Assembly (NCBI GenBank): GCA_020846745.1
Contig: JADLDI010000043.1
Coordinates: 1 to 64,000 of the forward strand
Direction of reading: 5' to 3'
Origin: Bryobacterales bacterium
GTDB lineage: Bacteria > Acidobacteriota > Terriglobia > Bryobacterales > Bryobacteraceae
DNA length: 64,000 nt
Shown: positions 588 through 32,269 of the stretch, in pieces
Position numbering within the stretch: the stretch's first letter is position 1
Layout: the number at the start of each line of letters is the position of its first letter
Program-made: the position numbers and the translations under genes
Notes under the pieces: model-generated
What the model was told of the DNA's origin: nothing
The model's database searches: none
The model's input: only the letters and a program-made list of their open reading frames with translations

Positions 588-2060
588 ATGAATTTAGGGA
601 CTCTCAGCGCCCCACGGAAAGCCGTGCTCGCGCTCGCACTGGCTGTCGGTCTGGTGACCGGCATTGCGGCCAAGGAAGTCTATGATATGAAGAATCCGCC
701 GGCTACATTGAAGCTGGCTGACCCGCGCGAGGGGTCCTTAAAGAACACCTTTGCGCCTGTCGTGAAACGCGCATTACCCGCCGTCGTGAACATCTCCACG
801 TCCAAAGTCGTGAAGGCGCCCACGTCGATGCGTGGCGGCCGTGGCGGCGCGCCGATGGACCCGTTCCGCGAGTTTTTTGGCGAAGATTTCGGCGGACAAT
901 TCCAGGCTCCTAAGGACCGTCGTGAACAGAGCCTTGGCTCCGGCGTGATCATCAGCCCGGAAGGGTACATTCTCACTAACAACCACGTAGTCGATGGCGC
1001 TACCGACATTAACGTGACGCTTTCTGACCGGCGCGAATTCAAGGCTCGCCTGGTTGGCGGCGATTCGCGCAGCGACGTTGCGCTGCTCAAGATTGAAGGC
1101 GCTGGCACGCTGCCGGTCATCACCATCGCCGATTCGACCAAGGTCGAAGTGGGTGATTGGGTACTCGCCATCGGCAACCCGTTCGGTGTCGGCCAAACCG
1201 TCACCATGGGCATCGTTTCCGCCACAAAGCGCGGCAACCTCGGTATCGAGGAATACGAAGATTTCATCCAAACCGACGCCGCTATCAACCCCGGCAACTC
1301 CGGTGGCGCCCTGGTGAACGAACGCGGTGAACTCATCGGCATCAACACTGCCATCCTGTCGCGTGCCGGCGGTAACCAGGGTATCGGTTTCGCGATCCCG
1401 GCCAACATGGCTCGCGATGTTATGGAGCAGTTGCGGCGCAGCGGTAAGGTGGTGCGTGCTTATATGGGCATCATTCCGCAGGACCTCACTCCCACGATGG
1501 CCAAAGCTTTCGGCGCGAAGGACCTGCACGGCGCCCTGGTCGGCGACGTAACGCCCGACAGCCCCGCCGCCAAAGCCGGACTGCAGAAAGGCGACATCAT
1601 CACCGAAGTGAACGGTAAGACTGTTGAAACCGCCAACCAACTGCGCAACAGCATCGCGCTCATGCCGCCTGACCAGGCTGTGTCGCTCAAGGTGTGGCGC
1701 GACGGCAACGCTCGCAACCTGTCGGTTACCCTCGCTGAGTTTCCGACTGAGCAACAGCGCGCGTCCAACGACACTCGCGACGACAACACTGAGCTTTCCG
1801 GTGTCCGTGTCGAAGATATCGATGCGCAGACCCGCCGCCAGCTTAACCTGAAGCCCGGTACCCAGGGTGTGGTCGTAACGGAGATCTCGTCCTCCAGCCC
1901 GGCCGCCGATTCCGGCCTGCGCGTTGGCGACGTGATTCAGGAAGTGAATCGCAAACCTGTGCGGAGCGCCGCTGATTTCCAGCGCGCCATGCGGCAAGCG
2001 GGTGAAGTTCCGCTGCTGTTAGTCAACCGCCGCGGTAACACCCTCTTTATCGCTGTGTAA
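588..2060 (+). CDS. degP: Do/DegP-type (HtrA) trypsin-like serine protease with two PDZ domains
   Basis: ATG at 588 with RBS ctggagg upstream. NNHVVDGA (His), SDVALLKI (Asp), GNSGGALV (Ser) triad motifs, then two PDZ domains (GDVTPDSPAAKAGLQKGDIITEVNG and SSSPAADSGLRVGDVIQEVN). Confidence 0.93.
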   Translation: MNLGTLSAPRKAVLALALAVGLVTGIAAKEVYDMKNPPATLKLADPREGSLKNTFAPVVKRALPAVVNISTSKVVKAPTSMRGGRGGAPMDPFREFFGEDFGGQFQAPKDRREQSLGSGVIISPEGYILTNNHVVDGATDINVTLSDRREFKARLVGGDSRSDVALLKIEGAGTLPVITIADSTKVEVGDWVLAIGNPFGVGQTVTMGIVSATKRGNLGIEEYEDFIQTDAAINPGNSGGALVNERGELIGINTAILSRAGGNQGIGFAIPANMARDVMEQLRRSGKVVRAYMGIIPQDLTPTMAKAFGAKDLHGALVGDVTPDSPAAKAGLQKGDIITEVNGKTVETANQLRNSIALMPPDQAVSLKVWRDGNARNLSVTLAEFPTEQQRASNDTRDDNTELSGVRVEDIDAQTRRQLNLKPGTQGVVVTEISSSSPAADSGLRVGDVIQEVNRKPVRSAADFQRAMRQAGEVPLLLVNRRGNTLFIAV

Positions 2061-2152
2061 CTCAACTTTAGTCAGCGATCGATAACCGACAGCAAAGTCC
2101 GGAGCGATTCGCGAACCACCTAAGGGTTTGGGGCCGCTCAAGGTGACGCGAG

Positions 2153-2203
2153 AAGATCCGGCCCGGAGTCGAACCAGTACTCCCGGGCCGGATCTTTTGT
2201 TTT
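2153..2203 (+). terminator. Rho-independent terminator downstream of the degP-like gene
   Basis: Inverted repeat aagatccggcccgga...tcccgggccggatctt followed by a T-rich tract (ttttgttttt). Confidence 0.7.
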
Positions 2204-2439
2204 TGCCTGCAACGGTGCTTCGCGCGATCTATACCATCCGAGGATTTATGTTACGGACAGCCGTTGGGACTTCGCCCATCAGTTTGTTCAGATCAGCCAG
2301 CAACTTCGGGACGGCGGCCCGTCATCACGGGCTGCTCGAATCCCCGCCTGGTAGTAGTCCGCCAACTTGCTTTTGCTGATCGGCGAATACGTCCGCTCCC
2401 GCCGGAATACTTGACAATAAAAGGAGGAGAAGCCAGAGC

Positions 2440-2952
2440 ATGGAGTTTAAGAAGAAAGTTCCTCAGTGGAATCAGTTTAGCTGCCTGGTTCGCGGGACTG
2501 TCATCGGCATAATTGCCCTATCATTGTGTGTGGCGCAGGAACTGCCAGGCGATTGGAGCACGGTGCAATTGTTATCACCAGGCTTACGCGTCCGGCTGAT
2601 TGTCGTTCCCGGCGGTGAGGTAAGAGGGCGCCTCGTCGGCGTCAGCCAATCGGGAATCGATGTCAACAGTAAGGGCTCCCGGCAAACTTACCCAAGACAT
2701 TCGGTGACACGCGTGTGGGCGGGAACGGCTCCGCGGCGTGGCCGGGGCGCACTGATCGGCGCCGCCGTCGGTGCAGGCGCCGGCACCGCTGTCGGCGGGT
2801 GGATGTACTCGAAGGGCGATTTCGTGCCTTCCGTGATCCTGGCCACAGCAGTGATTGGCGCCGGGATTGGCGCGGCAATCGGCGCAGTGACCGGCGGACG
2901 TGGGTCGGACAAACTCGTCTATGCCGCTTATCCCGCAGCCTCTCGTAGATAA
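2440..2952 (+). CDS. Glycine-zipper-containing exported/membrane protein, unknown function
   Basis: RBS aaggagg upstream, N-terminal hydrophobic segment, repeated GAAVGAGAGTAVGG / GAGIGAAIGAVTGG glycine zippers. Confidence 0.75.
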   Translation: MEFKKKVPQWNQFSCLVRGTVIGIIALSLCVAQELPGDWSTVQLLSPGLRVRLIVVPGGEVRGRLVGVSQSGIDVNSKGSRQTYPRHSVTRVWAGTAPRRGRGALIGAAVGAGAGTAVGGWMYSKGDFVPSVILATAVIGAGIGAAIGAVTGGRGSDKLVYAAYPAASRR

Positions 2953-2969
2953 AATGGTTGCGCAGGCCG

Positions 2970-5372
2970 ATGAGACTTCAGCTGTTTGTTGCCGGAGTAA
3001 CGCTTGCCCTGTCGATGCAGGCAGAGGTGGACTTCGTTCGCGACGTCCAGCCCATCTTGCGTAAGCGCTGCCTCGCCTGCCACGGCGCGGTCCGCCCGCA
3101 AAGCGGTTTGCGCCTCGACACCCGCGAGCATGCCTTGGAAGGCGGCTACTCCGGCGCCGTTCTCAAACCCGGCGATAGCGCCAATAGCAAGCTCTACCGG
3201 GTGGTCGCCGGTAAAGATACACTCACGATGCCGCCCGGAGGTGGGAAGCTGCCGCAAGCGGAAGTGGATACCTTCCGAAGCTGGATCGATGAAGGAGCGA
3301 GATGGCCGGCTATGCCAAATGCTGCCCCCGCGTTCGCAGCGACAAAGCTTTGGTCGTTTCAGCCGCTGCACAAGCCCGCGCTGCCGGACTCCACAGTGCA
3401 CCCGGTAGACGCGTTTGTCCTGACGAAGCTTCACAAGCAGCGAATTCAGCCATCCCCCGAAGCGCCGCGGCACACCCTGCTGCGCCGGCTGTATCTCGAC
3501 CTCACCGGACTCCCTCCCACTCCCGCGGACCTCGTCCGCACCGAGCCTTATGTAACTACGGTTGACCGTCTGCTTGCCTCACCCCACTTCGGTGAAAAAT
3601 GGGCTCGAATGTGGCTCGACCTGGCACGCTATGCCGATAGCGACGGATACGAGCAGGATCAGGTGCGGCCCCATGCCTGGCGGTACCGGCAGTGGGTCAT
3701 CGACGCCTTTAATCGCAATATGCCGTTTGACCAGTTCACCGTCGAACAGGTCGCCGGTGACCTCCTTCCAAACGCCACCATCGCCCAACTTACTGCCGCC
3801 GGCTTCCATCGCAACACCCTCACTTCCCGCGAAGGCGGCATCGACGTTGAGCAATTGCGCACGGAGCAGGTGACGGACCGTGCCATCACCACAGGCAGCG
3901 TCTGGCTCGGGCTCACCTTCGAATGCACACGCTGTCACGACCATAAGTATGACCCCATCACTCAGCGCGACTTCTACCGGTTCTACGCCTTCTTCAACTC
4001 CATCGACGAGATCAATCTGACTGACCCCTTGCCCGGCGAGCGCGGCCGCTTCGAAAAGACTTGGCCCGAGTACAAACGCCAGTACGACGAGATAGCCGCC
4101 AAAGCCCGGGTAGCCGAGTTACAACCCAAGTGGGAAGCCGAAGTAATGCAGGCCATGCAGGACCCGGCGGCGCGCCTCGAATGGACCCAGGTGCTCGATT
4201 ATGTGGCTGTCTATCAGGACCGTGGCCACGACATGCTGCGCACCCCGCCCGCCCAACGCACCTTTCGCCAGTCCCACGACCTCACCCGAGTCTTCCTCAA
4301 GTACCCCGGTCCCCTCGCATCCTGGCCGGAAGTCAAAGGCGTCCGCTTTGGCGAAGGGTTTCAGAAACTCGAAGACCTGGACGCCAGTTACCCTGGCCTA
4401 AGTGAAATTCCCTCCGTTCGCGAACGCTCGGCCCCGCGCGAGTCCCACATATTTCTCCGTGGCGACTTCCGGAATCCGGGTATTGCCGTTACACCGGGCA
4501 CGCCGGAGTCGCTGCCGCCCCTCGAAAGTCCGCCCACGCGCCTCGCGCTTGCGAAGTGGCTCGTGTCGCCGACCAACCCCCTCACGGCGCGCGTCACTGT
4601 GAACCGCTTCTGGCAGGAACTGTTCGGCCGTGGACTGGTTACTACGCCAGAGGACTTCGGAACTCGCGGCGATGCGCCTACGCATCCCGAGTTACTCGAC
4701 TATCTGGCCGCCACGTTCCGCGATTCCGGCTGGGACATGAAGGGACTTATCCGGCTGATAGTTACCTCCCAAACTTATAAGCAGTCCTCCCGCACCCGTA
4801 CCGACATCGACGATCCTGACAACCGCTTGCTTGCTCGGCAAAACCGCTTCCGCCTCCCCGCTGAACTCGTTCGCGATGCGGCTTTGTCCGCGTCGGGCTT
4901 ACTGAACCCCACCGTCGGCGGACCCAGCTTCCGTCCGCCGATTCCAGCCGGTGCACTGAAGGTGGCCTACCGCGTCAAATGGCAGGAAAGTCAGGGACCC
5001 GACCGTTACCGCCGCGGCCTCTACACGTTCCTGCAACGCTCTCTTCCCCATCCACAGTTGATGAACTTCGATGCGCCCAGTTCCCTGGTCTCGTGCAGCC
5101 GGCGTACACGATCGGTGACCCCCTTGCAGGCCCTAAACCTACTGAATGCGCCTGAGTTCACCGAAGCTGCCGCCGCTTTGGCCAAGCGTGTCGAGACCAA
5201 CCGCTCGGGCGGCTTCGACGAACAAGCCCGTTATGCCTTCGAGTTATGCCTCTCGCGCACGCCCTCGCCCGAGGAGATAGTGCTGCTTAGAAACTACTAC
5301 AACACGCGCCGTAACTGGACCGGCGTCGCCGCGGCCCTTCTTAACCTCGATGAGTTCATTACCCGTGAGTAA
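2970..5372 (+). CDS. PSD1 / DUF1549-DUF1553 protein with planctomycete-type cytochrome c domain
   Basis: Signal peptide, RKRCLACHG heme motif, VDAFVLTKL...LRRLYLDLTGLPP (DUF1549) and NRFWQELFGRGLVTTPEDFG (DUF1553). Confidence 0.9.
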   Translation: MRLQLFVAGVTLALSMQAEVDFVRDVQPILRKRCLACHGAVRPQSGLRLDTREHALEGGYSGAVLKPGDSANSKLYRVVAGKDTLTMPPGGGKLPQAEVDTFRSWIDEGARWPAMPNAAPAFAATKLWSFQPLHKPALPDSTVHPVDAFVLTKLHKQRIQPSPEAPRHTLLRRLYLDLTGLPPTPADLVRTEPYVTTVDRLLASPHFGEKWARMWLDLARYADSDGYEQDQVRPHAWRYRQWVIDAFNRNMPFDQFTVEQVAGDLLPNATIAQLTAAGFHRNTLTSREGGIDVEQLRTEQVTDRAITTGSVWLGLTFECTRCHDHKYDPITQRDFYRFYAFFNSIDEINLTDPLPGERGRFEKTWPEYKRQYDEIAAKARVAELQPKWEAEVMQAMQDPAARLEWTQVLDYVAVYQDRGHDMLRTPPAQRTFRQSHDLTRVFLKYPGPLASWPEVKGVRFGEGFQKLEDLDASYPGLSEIPSVRERSAPRESHIFLRGDFRNPGIAVTPGTPESLPPLESPPTRLALAKWLVSPTNPLTARVTVNRFWQELFGRGLVTTPEDFGTRGDAPTHPELLDYLAATFRDSGWDMKGLIRLIVTSQTYKQSSRTRTDIDDPDNRLLARQNRFRLPAELVRDAALSASGLLNPTVGGPSFRPPIPAGALKVAYRVKWQESQGPDRYRRGLYTFLQRSLPHPQLMNFDAPSSLVSCSRRTRSVTPLQALNLLNAPEFTEAAAALAKRVETNRSGGFDEQARYAFELCLSRTPSPEEIVLLRNYYNTRRNWTGVAAALLNLDEFITRE

Positions 5373-7742: not shown

Positions 7743-9128
7743 TCAAAAACCGTAGCTTTCGGTGGCGAACAACTGCCGCTGCTCGGGGCTGAGTCGTTCT
7801 ATCAGTTCGAATTCCGATCCGGGCAAGGCGTCGAGTTCTTCGCCTAAGCGGTCGAGCCACATTGCTTCTTTTCGCGGCAGTATGAGGCTACGGCCGGCGG
7901 CTCGCTCAATCAGGAGGTGCACGGCGGCCTTGCCGGCGGCGACCGTGCGGCGGTACGGGTCTGGCTCGCTGACGATAGCGGTCGCGATGCGCAGGGTAGC
8001 CTCGGGTGTTAGTAAGGCGGCCTGGGGACTCAGTGCCTCATCGGAGCGTACGAGCCAATCGCGTAGCATGCGTTGACTGCGATCGCGAATCGCGGTGTTC
8101 ATGAGGCGGCAGTCGTAGATCAGTATTTCGGCAAAGGCCTCGGGGGCGTTACCGGACAATAGGCGGATGTTCTGGACAGACTCGTTGCTCCACAAGTCGC
8201 ACATTGATGAGGCGATGTTGCCGACAGGGCTGAAGTGAGCGCAGGCGGCCGACTTGCCCTCCATCGAAATCGGACACCCAGTGATAGCTTTCAGCACAGG
8301 CCCTTCGTAGGCGCAATCTTTCGAGGGTCCTCGAGCGCCGTGTTCGAAGGCGGCCAAAGAGCGCGCCGCACTCATCGCGCGAACCACGGCCGCCAGCACC
8401 TCGGGCAGCATACGCTGGTGCGCCAGTTGCATCGCGGTGTTGGCGAATCCACAGGCGGTGTCGCCTCCGGGAACAGAGTGAACAGAAGCATTGGCAATCG
8501 ATGTGATGCGGTCCCAAAGCCAGGCCATATCTTGGGGCGCCAACACGCCGAGGGCAAATGCGATCGCACTGATGTCGCCGTAGAGCAGACCATGATCGTG
8601 CAGTTCCTTGCCGCCGATCGACTCGATTGAGAGAATGTCGGCGCCTGCCTGCGCACACAACGCAAAGGACCGCCACAAGGTTTCGCATTTCGAGCGCTCG
8701 CGGAGGCGTGGAGGTTTGGACTGGTCACGAATATCGGCGGGCGTTACTCGCAATGCTGAGCGCAAGCCATGCCGCTGATGCGCTTCACCCAATATCTCGT
8801 GAAGCAGTGCTGTGATCTCAGCGCCCCATTCCGGATTCTCCGTCATGGCTGGGAGATGCTCAAACTCCAGGACGATGCCGGGTACTTGCAGAGCGACCGC
8901 CCGTTTCGCGACGGCGGTACCAATTTGCTGGTAGTGGCTTCGGATCTCGGACCAGTTAACCGAGTCGACTTCAATCGCCGGAAGGGTGAAGTTCACTTCG
9001 GGGAAGACGGTTCCGGCGCCAATCTGCAGGTCGAAACCGCACGAAACCGGGTGGGGGCACGAGCCGAAAACCAGATCGGATTCGCGCTCAATCGCGAGGC
9101 GGCCCGAAACCGCCGGTGCAGAGAGCAT
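7743..9128 (-). CDS. mtaB: Methanol:corrinoid methyltransferase MtaB-like protein
   Basis: Many MtaB segments: VSCGFDLQIGAGTVFPEVNF, NPEWGAEITAL, ADILSIESIGGKELHDHGLLYGDI, GGDTACGFANTAMQ, PSKDCAYEGPVLKAITGCPISMEGKSAACAHFSPVGN, C-terminal YGF. RBS aaaggag 7 nt upstream of ATG. Confidence 0.88.
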   Translation of the reverse strand: MLSAPAVSGRLAIERESDLVFGSCPHPVSCGFDLQIGAGTVFPEVNFTLPAIEVDSVNWSEIRSHYQQIGTAVAKRAVALQVPGIVLEFEHLPAMTENPEWGAEITALLHEILGEAHQRHGLRSALRVTPADIRDQSKPPRLRERSKCETLWRSFALCAQAGADILSIESIGGKELHDHGLLYGDISAIAFALGVLAPQDMAWLWDRITSIANASVHSVPGGDTACGFANTAMQLAHQRMLPEVLAAVVRAMSAARSLAAFEHGARGPSKDCAYEGPVLKAITGCPISMEGKSAACAHFSPVGNIASSMCDLWSNESVQNIRLLSGNAPEAFAEILIYDCRLMNTAIRDRSQRMLRDWLVRSDEALSPQAALLTPEATLRIATAIVSEPDPYRRTVAAGKAAVHLLIERAAGRSLILPRKEAMWLDRLGEELDALPGSEFELIERLSPEQRQLFATESYGF

Positions 9129-9145
9129 AATCACTACTCCTTTCG

Positions 9146-24960: not shown

Positions 24961-26271
24961 ATGAAGCGAAGAGAGTTTGTCGCCGGTCCGCTGGCGGTCT
25001 CCGCCGTGGCCGGTAGTTCCGTAATGGCGCAAGCAACACCGGTGTACGACACGGTGCTCAAGGGTGGGCATGTGATCGACCTGGCGAACCAGATCAATCA
25101 GCCGATGGATGTGGCGGTGCTTGACGGCAAGATTGCGAAGGTCGACCGCAACATTCCGGGTTCGGCGGCGAAGAAGGCGGTGAACGTTGCCGGCTATTAC
25201 GTCACGCCGGGGCTGATCGATCTGCATATCTGCTGCTTCTACACGCGGCTCGACCTGACCCCTTCAGTAATTGCGGACCACCATTGCCTGCCTTCAGGTG
25301 TAACTACGACCTGTGACGGGGGCACCGCCGGGGCGGACAGCTTTGAGGATTTCAAGAAGATTATCGGCCGCTCGAAGATGCGCATCCTCTCGTTTCTCAA
25401 TATCGCCGCGCCGGGCGCCCAAGCGGGAGGAGCGGAGCAGGACCCGGCGCAGTTCAAGGTGCAACTGGCGGCCGAGACCGCAAAAAAGTATCCGCAGTTG
25501 ATTGTCGGGTTCAAAACCGGGCACTATGGCGGCAAGTTCAGTGAGACGCGCCCCCCGTGGGCGTCGATGGATGCGGTGCTCGAAGCAGGCCGGTTAACCA
25601 ATCTGCCCATTTTGGCGGACTTCACGCCGCAGCCGGCGCAGGGTAAATTCCCCGCGAGAAGCTATCGCGAGTTTCTGCTCGAAAAGATGCGGCCAGGCGA
25701 CATCGTGACACACTGCCTGGCAGACCGGTATGCGTTTCTGCAGGCCGATGGCACGCTCAATCCGGACGTGAACAAAGCGCGGGCGCGCGGCGTAAAGTTC
25801 GATTTGGGGCATGCGGCCGGCAGTTTTTCGTTCCGCCGCGTGATCCCCGCTATTGAACAGGGCTTCATCCCCGATTCAATTAGCGCCGACTTGTTCGCCG
25901 ACACGCCCTACACCGTCGGCATCAACCTCGCTTACGTGATGTCGAAGTTCCTGGCCTTGGGTGTGCCGTTTGAAGAAATCCTCCGCCGCACGACCGTATT
26001 TCCCGCGCAGATGATCAAGCGACCGGAACTCGGCAATCTCAGCGTCGGCTCCACCGCCGATGTGGCCGTATTGGAGATCCGGAAAGGCAAGTTTGCCTAC
26101 CTCGGATCGTTCGGCGGCAAGGTGGAAGGCAACCGGAAGATCGAATGCGTGATGACGATGGTCGGCGGCAAAATCCTCTACGACCATCCGTATGGCTTGA
26201 GCGTGCCCAATTGGAAAGACATTCCCAAGGATTCGAAGTATTGGGCGGATACGACCCAACAGAAGTTTTGA
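24961..26271 (+). CDS. Exported amidohydrolase/dihydroorotase-like metallohydrolase
   Basis: MKRREFVAGPLAVSAVAGSS signal, YDTVLKGGHVIDLANQI, VTPGLIDLHICC, VTHCLADRY, GNLSVGSTADVAVLEI. Confidence 0.85.
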   Translation: MKRREFVAGPLAVSAVAGSSVMAQATPVYDTVLKGGHVIDLANQINQPMDVAVLDGKIAKVDRNIPGSAAKKAVNVAGYYVTPGLIDLHICCFYTRLDLTPSVIADHHCLPSGVTTTCDGGTAGADSFEDFKKIIGRSKMRILSFLNIAAPGAQAGGAEQDPAQFKVQLAAETAKKYPQLIVGFKTGHYGGKFSETRPPWASMDAVLEAGRLTNLPILADFTPQPAQGKFPARSYREFLLEKMRPGDIVTHCLADRYAFLQADGTLNPDVNKARARGVKFDLGHAAGSFSFRRVIPAIEQGFIPDSISADLFADTPYTVGINLAYVMSKFLALGVPFEEILRRTTVFPAQMIKRPELGNLSVGSTADVAVLEIRKGKFAYLGSFGGKVEGNRKIECVMTMVGGKILYDHPYGLSVPNWKDIPKDSKYWADTTQQKF

Positions 26272-28075: not shown

Positions 28076-28957
28076 TTACTTCGTGCGGAGCGCCGCCGGC
28101 ACCTGATAATCCCTTCCGGCGTAGTGCATTTCTTCCGCGGCTTTGTATTGCGTATCTTTGGCGCAAACCGTGCCTAGGCCGCGAACGTTCGTCTCGACCA
28201 GTTTGTTCACGCTGGCCTCGTCAACGCGTTCGAGCAGGGGCAGTTTGCGGTTCGTCTCGTCCAGCCGTTGTTTGATGCGATGCGCCAGGCTGTAGTTGAT
28301 GGTTTTGAGCGATTGCGCGGCGCGGATCTTCTTGTCGAGCGTGGCCGCGATGTCTTTCGTCACCGGCTGCGGCACGAACGTGGCGGTGGACTCCGCCTCG
28401 CGCCGCCGCGGGTCGAACGGCTGGGCATAGTAGTAAAGCTCCGGCGTGACGTGTGTCTCGACGCCCACCACGGCCAGCGGCGGCTGGTGATTCTTCAACC
28501 CTGCCACGCGGCGCGCTTCTTCCGCTGCCATGCCCGTGTAATACCGGTCGAGCACCTCGACATATTCGGCGTACGGATTGGGAATGAACATCGCATCGGG
28601 CTTATGCACGCGGACGTAGAACATGATGCGGTCGCGTAACTCGGTCGGTGAAACCCCCGCTAACTCACCGGCCCGATAGCCTAGTGAAACTACTTTCTCG
28701 ATACCCAGGATCTTAGCCGCCGCTTCGCTTTCCTGCTTCACGCGGCGGGCGGTCTCTTCCGCATCGAGCTGCCACGAGTCTTTGTCGTCGTTGGTGACGC
28801 GGATCAGAATCGCCTTGTCGCCATTCGCGATCATCCCGGCTAGCGTCCCTCCCGCCGATAGGATGTAATCGGACGCATCGGCCGTCACCACCAGAATCGT
28901 CTTCGCCGGCGCCGGCGCGCCGAGCAACAGCCCCAACACAATCATTCGCAGCATCAC
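28076..28957 (-). CDS. PIG-L/LmbE-like secreted protein with degenerate active site (pseudoenzyme candidate)
   Basis: Signal peptide; ILVVTADASDYILSAGGTLAGMI aligns with canonical AHPDDE...GGTLA; EAAAKILGIEKVVSLGYRAGEL; no HPDH motif. Confidence 0.8.
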   Translation of the reverse strand: MMLRMIVLGLLLGAPAPAKTILVVTADASDYILSAGGTLAGMIANGDKAILIRVTNDDKDSWQLDAEETARRVKQESEAAAKILGIEKVVSLGYRAGELAGVSPTELRDRIMFYVRVHKPDAMFIPNPYAEYVEVLDRYYTGMAAEEARRVAGLKNHQPPLAVVGVETHVTPELYYYAQPFDPRRREAESTATFVPQPVTKDIAATLDKKIRAAQSLKTINYSLAHRIKQRLDETNRKLPLLERVDEASVNKLVETNVRGLGTVCAKDTQYKAAEEMHYAGRDYQVPAALRTK

Positions 28958-29886
28958 TTCTTCACCACGTTCGCTTCCAAATAGCCTTTCAATCCGGGCA
29001 CATGATCGAACTCATTCCAGAACCAGTAGACCTCGGCGTATTTCACGCCGTTCTCCGTTCCCCGCTTGCGCGAAATCCAGTTCATGTACCATTCCTCGAT
29101 AATCACCGCCGCTTCCTGATCGGTTTTGCCGTCCAATTCGGGAATCGTCAGCCCCTGCTTTTCTAACTGCGCCCGGACGCTGCGCGCCATGCCGGGATGC
29201 GCATATACGTTGCGGTGCGTCGAGTAAGCCTTCTCTTTTTTCTGCACCTGGCTTTCCGATAACTCCACCGCGCAGTTCGCATGATGCCCACGCCCGTAAT
29301 CGACCCGAGCCTTCAGAAACATATACGACACCCGGTGCGGTTTAAGACCGACCGCGAAGTGTTCCGGGTGAACGTTCTCAAGCCCGGCCATCCACACCGC
29401 TTCAGCCGACGCCCGCGCCACCTTGCGATGGTCCGGATTGCGGTCGTAGTGCGCCCACGGATCGTGCCCTAGCACCAGGTCCGGCTTATGCTTCCGGATC
29501 AGCAGGATCAACTGCGCACGCAGTTCCTCGAGCGGCGCCGCGTCCATATAGTCGTTTCGCCAGCCGAGCGAATACACGCCTTTTATCCCCAACACCGCGG
29601 TTGCGGCTTCGCTTTCCCGCAGGTTGATCATGTCGTTGTGCGGATAGCCGGACGACCCGTCTTTTTCGTCGTTAGACGACCGTACGTACCAGCCCTGCCA
29701 CCCCGCTTCGGTCAGCTTCGCGATCAGCCCACCCATACCGTAATCGGTGGTGTGGTCGTCATGATGCGGCTGCAGCACCATAAAGGTCTTGCCCGGCGGC
29801 AATTGCGCCAACGGCAGTGCCGCGGCCAGCGCCAACACCGCCGCCATCATGGCAACACCGCCTTCAGCCCCGGCACAAAGTCCCAC
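28954..29886 (-). CDS. PIG-L/LmbE-like secreted deacetylase, metal motif retained
   Basis: FMVLQPHHDDHTTDYGMGGLIAKL, ESEAATAVLGIKGVYSLGWRND, GHDPWAHYDRNPDHRKVARASAEAVW. Confidence 0.85.
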   Translation of the reverse strand: MGLCAGAEGGVAMMAAVLALAAALPLAQLPPGKTFMVLQPHHDDHTTDYGMGGLIAKLTEAGWQGWYVRSSNDEKDGSSGYPHNDMINLRESEAATAVLGIKGVYSLGWRNDYMDAAPLEELRAQLILLIRKHKPDLVLGHDPWAHYDRNPDHRKVARASAEAVWMAGLENVHPEHFAVGLKPHRVSYMFLKARVDYGRGHHANCAVELSESQVQKKEKAYSTHRNVYAHPGMARSVRAQLEKQGLTIPELDGKTDQEAAVIIEEWYMNWISRKRGTENGVKYAEVYWFWNEFDHVPGLKGYLEANVVKK

Positions 29887-30605
29887 TCACCGCGATAGAA
29901 CATCTTCTCCACGCCATATTCAGCGGCGGGCAGCGTAGGCGGGTCGGGTGCCTTGCCGCGAACGTTCGTGTGCGCCCACCAAGCCAGGCCTTTCTTCTTC
30001 AGTTGCGAATCGGTCAGCTTCACGCTGAAGTTCGGCGTGTGCCCAAGGCCATAATCGTCGCGCTGGCCGTAGTACACGTGCGGCACACGATATGGCTTCA
30101 GCCCCAGTTCCGCATGCTCCGGATTGACGTTCGCCAAACCGGACAGCCAAAGCGCCTCGCCAATGGCGCGGCCCACTTTCCGATGGTCCGGATTGCGATC
30201 GTAGTGGCCCCACGGGTTGTACGTCATCACGACATCCGGCCGAAACTTCCTCAGCAGCAATATGTAGTGTGCGCGCACTTCCTTCAGCGGCACCGAATCC
30301 ATGTGATCGTTTCGCCAGTTCAGGCTGATCACGTCTTTCAACCCGATATGAGCCGCCGCTGCCCGCGCTTCTTTCAGATTGACTTGATCGCCGCCGCCCC
30401 AGCCGAGTTTCAGGTTGCTGTCCTTTTCGTCGTTGGTCGTACGGACGAAATATCCGGTCCAGCCCTCCTCCACCAGCTTTGACGCGAAGCCTGAAAAGCC
30501 CCACCACCACGTGTGGTCGTCATGGTGGGCCATGATGATCAAAAACGTCTTCGACGGCGGCTGTTGGGCGGCCGTTGTCGCCACCAGCAGGAACAGCAGT
30601 CCCAT
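29847..30605 (-). CDS. PIG-L/LmbE-like secreted deacetylase, metal motif retained
   Basis: MGLLFLLVATTAAQ signal, FLIIMAHHDDHTWWWGFSGFASKL, YNPWGHYDRNPDHRKVGRAIGEALW. Confidence 0.85.
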   Translation of the reverse strand: MGLLFLLVATTAAQQPPSKTFLIIMAHHDDHTWWWGFSGFASKLVEEGWTGYFVRTTNDEKDSNLKLGWGGGDQVNLKEARAAAAHIGLKDVISLNWRNDHMDSVPLKEVRAHYILLLRKFRPDVVMTYNPWGHYDRNPDHRKVGRAIGEALWLSGLANVNPEHAELGLKPYRVPHVYYGQRDDYGLGHTPNFSVKLTDSQLKKKGLAWWAHTNVRGKAPDPPTLPAAEYGVEKMFYRGEWDFVPGLKAVLP

Positions 30606-30630
30606 CGCATGATAAACTGTCCGCTTTCCA

Positions 30631-31434
30631 ATGCGGTTTTTGTTTGCTTTGCTCTTGGTCACGTCTTTGTTCGCACAGGATCGCCGCATACTCGTCGTCA
30701 CGGCGTCATCCGGCGATTATATCTTTGGTGCGGGCGGAACGCTTGCCAAATTCATCCGTGACGGTTGGCGGGTGGACGTCGCGCAGTTCGGAAACGACGA
30801 AAAACAGTCGCTCGGCTTGACTCAGGCGCAGACTCGTCTGGCCAATGTTCAGGAGGGTAAAGCGGCCGCGAAACTGCTGGGCGTCAAAGATACCGTCAAC
30901 ATGGATTTCAAATCCGGCGAGATCGCCTACGTTTCGACCACTGAGATGCGCAACCAGTTGTTCGCGCTCATCCGTGGGATCAGGCCGCAGATAATCTTCA
31001 TCCCCGACCCTTACGTGCACTACCAAAACGATAGCGACCTGATCACTGTCGGCCGCATGGCCGAAGAGGCGTGGGGCTATTCGAGTGGTTCGATGTTCGG
31101 CAACGAACTGACACGCATGGGGCTGAAGCCGTACGGCGCACCCGAGGTCTTCTTCTACGCGCCTTACCGGCCATACCGCAAGGGCGAAGGCGGTGCGGGC
31201 CGCGCGAAATTCGTGGCCATTGATGTTGCCGAAACAATGGAGCATAAGTTGGGTGCGCTCGAGTTGCTGCTCACTCACAACCGGACCTGGGTGGCCAATC
31301 GTACCCAGCTACAGCCCGATCAGAGCGTATCCGCTTACGTTCGCGCTTTTGCCACAGAGATGGCTAAAAAAATCGGTGCCAGGCACGGGTTTCAATTTGG
31401 AGAGGAGTTTAACCATGTCGGTCCGCGCCGCTAG
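30631..31434 (+). CDS. PIG-L/LmbE-like secreted protein with degenerate active site
   Basis: MRFLFALLLVTSLFAQ signal, ILVVTASSGDYIFGAGGTLAKFI, EGKAAAKLLGVKDTVNMDFKSGEI; no HPDH. Confidence 0.8.
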   Translation: MRFLFALLLVTSLFAQDRRILVVTASSGDYIFGAGGTLAKFIRDGWRVDVAQFGNDEKQSLGLTQAQTRLANVQEGKAAAKLLGVKDTVNMDFKSGEIAYVSTTEMRNQLFALIRGIRPQIIFIPDPYVHYQNDSDLITVGRMAEEAWGYSSGSMFGNELTRMGLKPYGAPEVFFYAPYRPYRKGEGGAGRAKFVAIDVAETMEHKLGALELLLTHNRTWVANRTQLQPDQSVSAYVRAFATEMAKKIGARHGFQFGEEFNHVGPRR

Positions 31435-32269
31435 CCTGTTTCTCGGATGCGCGCTGTTCGCGGCCGCCCAGACACCCGGACCTGTCTTGGTGATCACTGC
31501 CTCAGCCCGCGATTGCATTATGGGAGCCGGCGGCACGCTCGCCAACATGGCCCAGGAAGGCCGCGCGATCTACGTGGCCGTGATGACGAACGAAGAGAAG
31601 TCGTCAGTCGGGAAAGTTCCGGCCGATACTCGCATCGCCAACAACAGCGAAAGCGAGGCGGCCTTGAAGTTGTTAGGCGTCAAAGAAGTCATCAATCTAG
31701 GGCACAAGGCCGGCGAGTTAGGGTATATCTCCTCGAGCGAACTGCGCAATCAGGTGATGACGCTCACCCGTCTGTACAAGCCCGAAATCATGTTCTTCCC
31801 GGACTGGTACACACACTACCTCGGCGACCTCGACATCTGGTACACCGGCCACATGGCCGAAGAATCCCCCTATGGCGGTGGCAGCCTGTTTCTGCAGGAA
31901 ATGACTTACCTCGGTCATCCCGGCGCCGCGGCTCGCCAGTATTACTTCTTCTCGCCCTACCGCCCCTACCGCGACAAAGAGGGCGGTGAGGGCAACGCCA
32001 CCATGAAGCAGGTGGATGTTTCCGCGGCCATGGATAAGAAGATGACCGCTTTGGGCATGCTGAAAACCTCCAATGCCGCGTGGGCCGGCGAGTTGCGCGC
32101 GCGTTCCGGCCGCACGTTCCAGGACGAAAACTTCGTCAGCGCCTTTGCGAAAGAAATGGCGGAGACCATCGGCGCGAAGCACGGCATGCGCTTCGCGGAA
32201 GAGTTCAATCACCTGCGGCCCGTGCCCGGCCTGCCTGCGCACGTCCTCGAACACGCCCGAAAGAAGTGA
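31415..32269 (+). CDS. PIG-L/LmbE-like secreted protein with degenerate active site
   Basis: MSVRAASLFLGCALFAAAQ signal, VLVITASARDCIMGAGGTLANMA, ESEAALKLLGVKEVINLGHKAGEL; no HPDH. Overlaps the 3' end of the previous paralog. Confidence 0.8.
   Translation: MSVRAASLFLGCALFAAAQTPGPVLVITASARDCIMGAGGTLANMAQEGRAIYVAVMTNEEKSSVGKVPADTRIANNSESEAALKLLGVKEVINLGHKAGELGYISSSELRNQVMTLTRLYKPEIMFFPDWYTHYLGDLDIWYTGHMAEESPYGGGSLFLQEMTYLGHPGAAARQYYFFSPYRPYRDKEGGEGNATMKQVDVSAAMDKKMTALGMLKTSNAAWAGELRARSGRTFQDENFVSAFAKEMAETIGAKHGMRFAEEFNHLRPVPGLPAHVLEHARKK

Follow-up and report, generated by a model that had tools for sequence, protein, structure and literature searches.

The genome of a Bryobacterales bacterium encodes five adjacent proteins of the PIG-L/LmbE family, of which two (B and C) retain a complete catalytic motif and three (A, D, and E) have lost it. 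Together they probably assemble into a hetero-oligomer that is secreted and acts as an N-deacetylase of the PIG-L/LmbE (CE14) type, with the catalytically dead subunits serving as structural partners; the probability of this reading is put at about 0.6. The evidence comprises the split of the motifs and its conservation, the all-or-none co-occurrence of the genes, purifying selection, the divergent operon and natural gene fusions. We infer the physical complex, its export, a geometry like that of the Pyrococcus diacetylchitobiose deacetylases (Dac) and the class of substrate.

Organization of the gene cluster

The genes are packed in 4.2 kb of the window, which is the whole analyzed stretch of 64,000 nucleotides. 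A sequence-only reading of the window had reported five consecutive open reading frames here, three on the minus and two on the plus strand, and this arrangement was confirmed:

28076..28957, minus strand: A, PIG-L-fold pseudo-deacetylase with a signal-peptide-like N-terminus, last gene of the minus-strand operon (PF02585, 52.1 bits)
28954..29850, minus strand: B, PIG-L deacetylase, candidate catalytic subunit with a signal-peptide-like N-terminus (PF02585, 67.5 bits; PHHDDH...NPDH)
29847..30605, minus strand: C, second catalytic-type subunit, paralogue of B (PF02585, 67.3 bits; AHHDDH...NPDH)
30606..30630, no strand: spacer of 25 nt separating the start codons of the divergent genes C and D, read from the sequence
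30631..31434, plus strand: D, PIG-L-fold pseudo-deacetylase with a signal-peptide-like N-terminus (PF02585, 54.8 bits; TASSGDY...SDL)
31415..32269, plus strand: E, PIG-L-fold pseudo-deacetylase, paralogue of D, with a signal-peptide-like N-terminus (PF02585, 48.5 bits; TASARDC...LDI)

All five proteins, including the degenerate ones, score above the curated Pfam cut-off of 28.2 bits that was used to define membership in PF02585 (48.5–67.5 bits), in agreement with the family assignment originally proposed. The GGTLA motif on which that assignment had partly relied occurs in only three of the proteins (A, D, and E), with GGLIA instead in B and SGFAS in C. Signal peptides had also been proposed, and a signal-peptide-like hydrophobic stretch, read by eye rather than with a predictor, is found at the N-terminus of each of A–E. 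With these N-termini as a guide, the start of B was moved from 29886 to the ATG at 29850, that of C from 30701 to the ATG at 30605, and that of E from 31193 to the ATG at 31415; the 310-aa ORF of B and the 358-aa ORF of E were over-extended.

The genes were described as overlapping or lying within about 30 nt of each other, and the packing is indeed that tight or tighter, with overlaps of 4 nt between A and B (GTGA), 4 nt between B and C (ATGA) and 20 nt between D and E. A-B-C and D-E thus look like two translationally coupled operons that diverge from a very short shared promoter region. With no more than 25 nt from the start codon of C to that of D, the two promoters or 5' leaders must overlap or be located within genes. 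The genome contains 14 PIG-L domains in total, and A–E are their sole cluster; the location of 5 of the 14 within 4.2 kb indicates that the clustering is not due to chance. The first motif is non-degenerate in every inspected one of the other nine domains.

Loss of catalytic residues in A, D, and E

In the reviewed LmbE enzymes, the metal is held by the motif HXD1D2 and a further H, with D1 acting as the general base (PMC4101496). The full zinc and base motif is present in B and C (HHDD and NPDH), and the B/C alignment has HHDDH, WRND, and NPDHR conserved in each of its 21 rows. A, D, and E have each lost the Asp that serves as general base, along with two of the three zinc ligands. In A, the corresponding sequences are TADASDY and LDR, with H1 replaced by Asp, the base D1 by Ser and H3 by Arg.

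The same split extends to the orthologues. In an alignment of 165 relatives, with rows grouped by tree clade, the complete H-D1-D2...H motif occurs in 49/49 B/C sequences and in 29/29 other acidobacterial homologues (one of these 29 being an extra B/C row placed outside by the rooting), and in none of the 32 A orthologues or the 52 D/E sequences. In A rows, H1 is mainly Asp and H3 is Arg. The D/E rows have mainly Ser or Gly at H1 and variable residues at H3; the base position is occupied by Gly or Arg in 47/52 and by Gly, Arg, Ala, or Glu in all, and the D2 Asp is retained in 51/52. It is therefore the fold, and not the catalytic site, that makes A, D, and E members of the PIG-L/LmbE family. 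The suggestion of one secreted hydrolase family holds for the common family and for the two members with a full motif, but not for A, D, and E, which lack the residues for zinc-dependent hydrolysis; this loss is the main point that the sequence-only reading missed.

A, D, and E could in principle remain hydrolases by means of another metal site or of non-metal catalysis, and such an activity would fit the retention of the D2 Asp in most D/E sequences, together with a His close to it (Y.HY), and of all three zinc ligands in the early-branching D domains of loci L065 and L087. It is nevertheless improbable, because the occupation of the base position by Gly, Arg, Ala, or Glu and of H1 and H3 by many unrelated residues points to released constraint rather than to a new fixed site, and the reviewed LmbE-like enzymes all rely on HXD1D2 and H (PMC4101496).

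The early-branching sequences L087 A, L087 D, and L065 D have the three zinc ligands and lack the base Asp, so that the simplest reading of the order of decay is that the base was lost first and the zinc ligands afterwards. In L087, the dead domains of the B-A fusion (1524-3119) and of D (3145-3924) have the base Asp substituted by Glu (HPED and HAED), which appears to be an intermediate stage.

Conservation, phylogeny, and selection

The set is carried by a group of Acidobacteriota from soil and fresh water. Among 201 genomes of the family, strong matches to A and to D/E are found in the same 24, and B/C in 23 of those 24 and in no other; in the genome with missing B (G134), the contig breaks off inside A. 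A search of 396 genomes of the phylum with the D/E profile retrieved, besides the bacterium's own genome, only HxDD-bearing homologues, and a GTDB-wide contig scan with one D/E peptide pattern yielded 23 loci, all in Acidobacteriota MAGs.

The same divergent arrangement was found again in about 20 loci. Five-gene loci contain two B/C and two D/E genes, and three-gene loci one of each; L083 departs from these matched copy numbers, with three B/C versus two D/E genes. In genomes G026 and G033, the D-E pair is on a different contig from A/B/C. The clustering is thus conserved in related genomes, in line with the dedicated module that had been suggested for it.

Phylogenetic analysis places A and D/E in one clade (SH-aLRT 99) and B/C in another (99), with C forming a clade of its own inside B/C. 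The three-gene lineage forms a clade in each part of the tree, whether among the A, the B, or the D/E sequences. As judged from the tree and the co-occurrence, the split into live and dead subunits is ancient, and so is the set itself, which is inherited as a unit. The tandem amplification proposed for the cluster is not borne out as a recent event, given the age of the A, B/C, and D/E clades. Plain amplification of active secreted hydrolases for a wider substrate range accounts for the PF02585 matches of all five proteins and for the duplications within B/C and D/E, which are real. It is, however, very improbable given the incomplete zinc and base residues in every A and D/E sequence and the age and co-inheritance of the set.

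A second type of PIG-L set occurs in the same family (L071 8053-10358, L072 3448-5795, L073 177-2515, and L074 7300-9725), consisting of adjoining single-domain and two-domain secreted PIG-L proteins with HxDD...H intact in all three domains. These all-active sets were considered as the ancestor of the pseudo-subunits and rejected, as they form a separate clade in the tree.

Comparison of four close locus pairs, two of them with dS near saturation, gave dN/dS values of 0.03-0.18 for live and dead subunits alike; for A, dN/dS was 0.115 versus the congeneric L045. Purifying selection on the zinc-less subunits is as strong as on the catalytic ones. The A, D, and E reading frames are intact at 25-50% divergence across the 24 genomes. 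A, D, and E are conserved pseudoenzymes: the catalytic residues are lost in all orthologues, and the frame and purifying selection are kept. That they are functionless, decaying, pseudogene-like leftovers might be suggested by the missing catalytic residues and by the loss of the D arm in this genus (see below), but this explanation is contradicted by the purifying selection, the intact reading frames, the conserved operon and the fusions, and is hardly tenable.

Natural gene fusions

B-A fusions are encoded in L065/L086 (one and the same contig) and in L087, and D-E fusions in L046, L047, L048, and L053. In each of them, the inner domain follows a short linker and lacks a signal peptide. The fusions would thus tie dead to live (B-A) and dead to dead (D-E) subunits; with the co-occurrence and the translational coupling, they constitute Rosetta-stone evidence for a complex, which falls short of proof. 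An AlphaFold2 model of the L087 B-A fusion comprises two folded domains whose relative placement is poorly defined (pTM 0.64, with the A half covered by just two alignment rows).

These fusions bear on another possibility, namely that A, D, and E were repurposed for lectin-like sugar binding or for another reaction of the pathway and act as free secreted proteins, out of complex with B/C. D/E proteins keep pocket-like residues of their own (HKSGEL, PDPY.HY, RPYR, and EGG) along with the nearly invariant D2 Asp (51/52), and the PIG-L fold already houses a non-deacetylase, the 4-oxalmesaconate hydratase GalB (5cgz), which turned up in both the fold and the profile comparisons. Such repurposing is considered unlikely, since the inner domains of the B-A and D-E fusions have no signal peptide and A and D/E never occur without B/C, whereas a binding protein that acts freely should occur on its own in at least some genome.

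Structural relatives and the C-terminal arm

The AlphaFold2 model of D from the window (pLDDT 90.4, pTM 0.88) has the Rossmann-like LmbE fold. Its best Foldseek matches are Pyrococcus diacetylchitobiose deacetylases (1e-17, TM about 0.72), and Pyrococcus Dac is likewise the top solved match for the A, B/C, and D/E profiles. In the Dac hexamer, each subunit extends roughly 20 residues at its N-terminus and 13 at its C-terminus into the pocket of its neighbor, and the catalytic His259*, as well as Gly255*, is contributed in trans by the adjacent subunit (PMC9779004).

This region is retained in the dead subunits. The D/E tails contain an EEFN strand followed by P-x-[HYW] in 41/45 sequences (His in 27, Tyr in 7, and Trp in 7), and the A tails have EEF...[VI]P. 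The arm of B/C is PGLxxY, with Tyr in 40 of about 42 tails, and a Tyr arm is also found in 15/15 pattern-matched tails of stand-alone active homologues. The C-terminal PGLPAHV of E was aligned by phmmer to PGLFYHI of Pyrococcus Dac with a very low score. The position of Dac His259* would accordingly be occupied by Tyr in B/C and by His, Tyr, or Trp in D/E, as far as a weak alignment of short tails can place it. In this genus, D is truncated in the arm and stops directly after EEFNHVGP (31350-31434), and about 50 aa are absent from the C-terminal part of C (29847-30605); these two divergently transcribed neighbors are thus both shortened close to the segment that Dac extends to its adjacent subunit.

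The following mechanism is proposed. B and C would be the catalytic subunits, binding zinc by His-Asp-His and using Asp as the general base, and would release an acyl group, which is probably acetyl, from a substrate of the amino-sugar type. The dead subunits A, D, and E may go back to a single lineage of PIG-L duplicates in which the base disappeared before the zinc ligands did and which was kept as structural partners. They would fill positions in a Dac-like ring, touching the catalytic subunits, and their C-terminal arms could plausibly reach into the substrate pocket of the neighbor. Dead subunits placed in a ring in contact with the live sites are the simplest reading of the data.

A more specific form is proposed only tentatively, as being conceivable rather than likely: the arms of A, D, and E (usually P-x-His in D/E) would enter the zinc pockets of B/C, so that each active site would be made of a live and a dead paralogue and the hetero-oligomer would be obligate. 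Its strictest version, in which the trans residue comes from the dead D/E subunits only and B/C have none, is weakened and not favored because B/C carry PGLxxY like the stand-alone active homologues. By the same token, B/C might work as homomers. The co-occurrence and fusions can also be explained by a shared pathway without contact between the proteins, the arm is gone in some dead subunits such as D of the window, and the separate contigs of D/E and A/B/C in G026 and G033 and the unequal copy numbers of L083 likewise run counter to a hetero-oligomer of either form.

Substrate and neighboring genes

The CE14 relatives act on N-acetyl-glucosamine compounds. The closest solved relatives of A–E being chitobiose deacetylases, the substrate is likely of the N-acyl-sugar (glycan or glycoconjugate) class. 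The glycan or glycoconjugate processing suggested at the outset is thus supported by analogy with Dac at the level of substrate class, and a glycan as the actual substrate would be an extrapolation from it.

A fixed partner gene beside the cluster was sought and rejected, as the flanks differ among loci and no neighbor is general. A SelA-like/aminotransferase-V PLP enzyme adjoins the cluster in L057 (7208-8431), L063 (5806-7275), and L067 (9002-10174), and a SelA-like PLP enzyme lies about 1.5 kb from it in L059 (4804-5985); a link of this enzyme to the breakdown of amino-sugar acids is possible. An FmdA acetamidase adjoins the cluster in L066, with relatives close by in L064 and L069, and ceramidase-like genes flank L047 and L053. 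These recurrent neighbors, together with D-Ser-dehydratase-like proteins, fit the catabolism of amides and amino compounds, each being present in few loci.

The neighbors in the window itself (aat, GH109-like, PD40, and MauG) are not common to other loci. The same applies to an exported-looking amidohydrolase (24961-26271) located within 2 kb of the cluster, which is close to PRK09237/EF_0837 with 343.7 bits, just under the cut-off of 371. Elsewhere in the window, 7743-9134 encodes MtaB, a methanol:cobalamin methyltransferase subunit (PF12176, 517 bits), which is unexpected in an acidobacterium.

Comparison with known systems

Dac is an archaeal enzyme without a signal peptide. The Dac proteins of Pyrococcus and Thermococcus (CE14; 8bgn, 3wl4, and 4xm0) are the closest solved relatives of A, B/C, and D/E in both fold and sequence. 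B/C share with them the His-Asp-His zinc triad and base Asp, and the C-terminal arm region is present. Unlike the Dac homohexamer, in which all subunits are active (PMC9779004), three of the five conserved subunits described here have no complete zinc site. B/C also differ from Dac in having HHDDH and WRND, and apparently Tyr in place of His259*.

The LmbE enzymes BshB, MshB, and Mca of the thiol pathways are cytoplasmic. BshB1/BshB2, MshB, and Mca have the PF02585 fold and the HXD1D2+H motif in common with B/C; unlike the assembly proposed for A–E, they are homomeric biosynthetic enzymes. BshB is a hexamer in the crystal (PMC4101496). Identity of A–E with these enzymes was rejected, as all five score far below the NCBIfam equivalog cut-offs (at best 61.9 versus 182.5 bits). 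GalB has the PIG-L fold and catalyzes a reaction other than deacetylation, and its match to D/E is weaker than that of Dac. To our knowledge, GalB does not occur in clusters with active paralogues.

Complexes of a live and a dead paralogue are known in the mitochondrial processing peptidase. The RNase III editing endonuclease pairs of trypanosomes are another example (PMC9508840). A–E resemble both in that a live subunit is kept with a dead paralogue, and the folds are unrelated. No heteromeric or dead member of the PIG-L/LmbE family was found in a review of these enzymes (PMC4101496) or in the literature searched, which included few subscription journals.

Pseudoenzyme subunits are thus already known in other folds, and A–E would be, within the literature searched, the first complex of live and dead paralogues in the LmbE superfamily. 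Annotation pipelines probably call all five proteins "PIG-L deacetylase," which A, D, and E almost certainly are not. The ordered intermediates of decay, as in L087, make the steps from enzyme to partner protein readable and testable.
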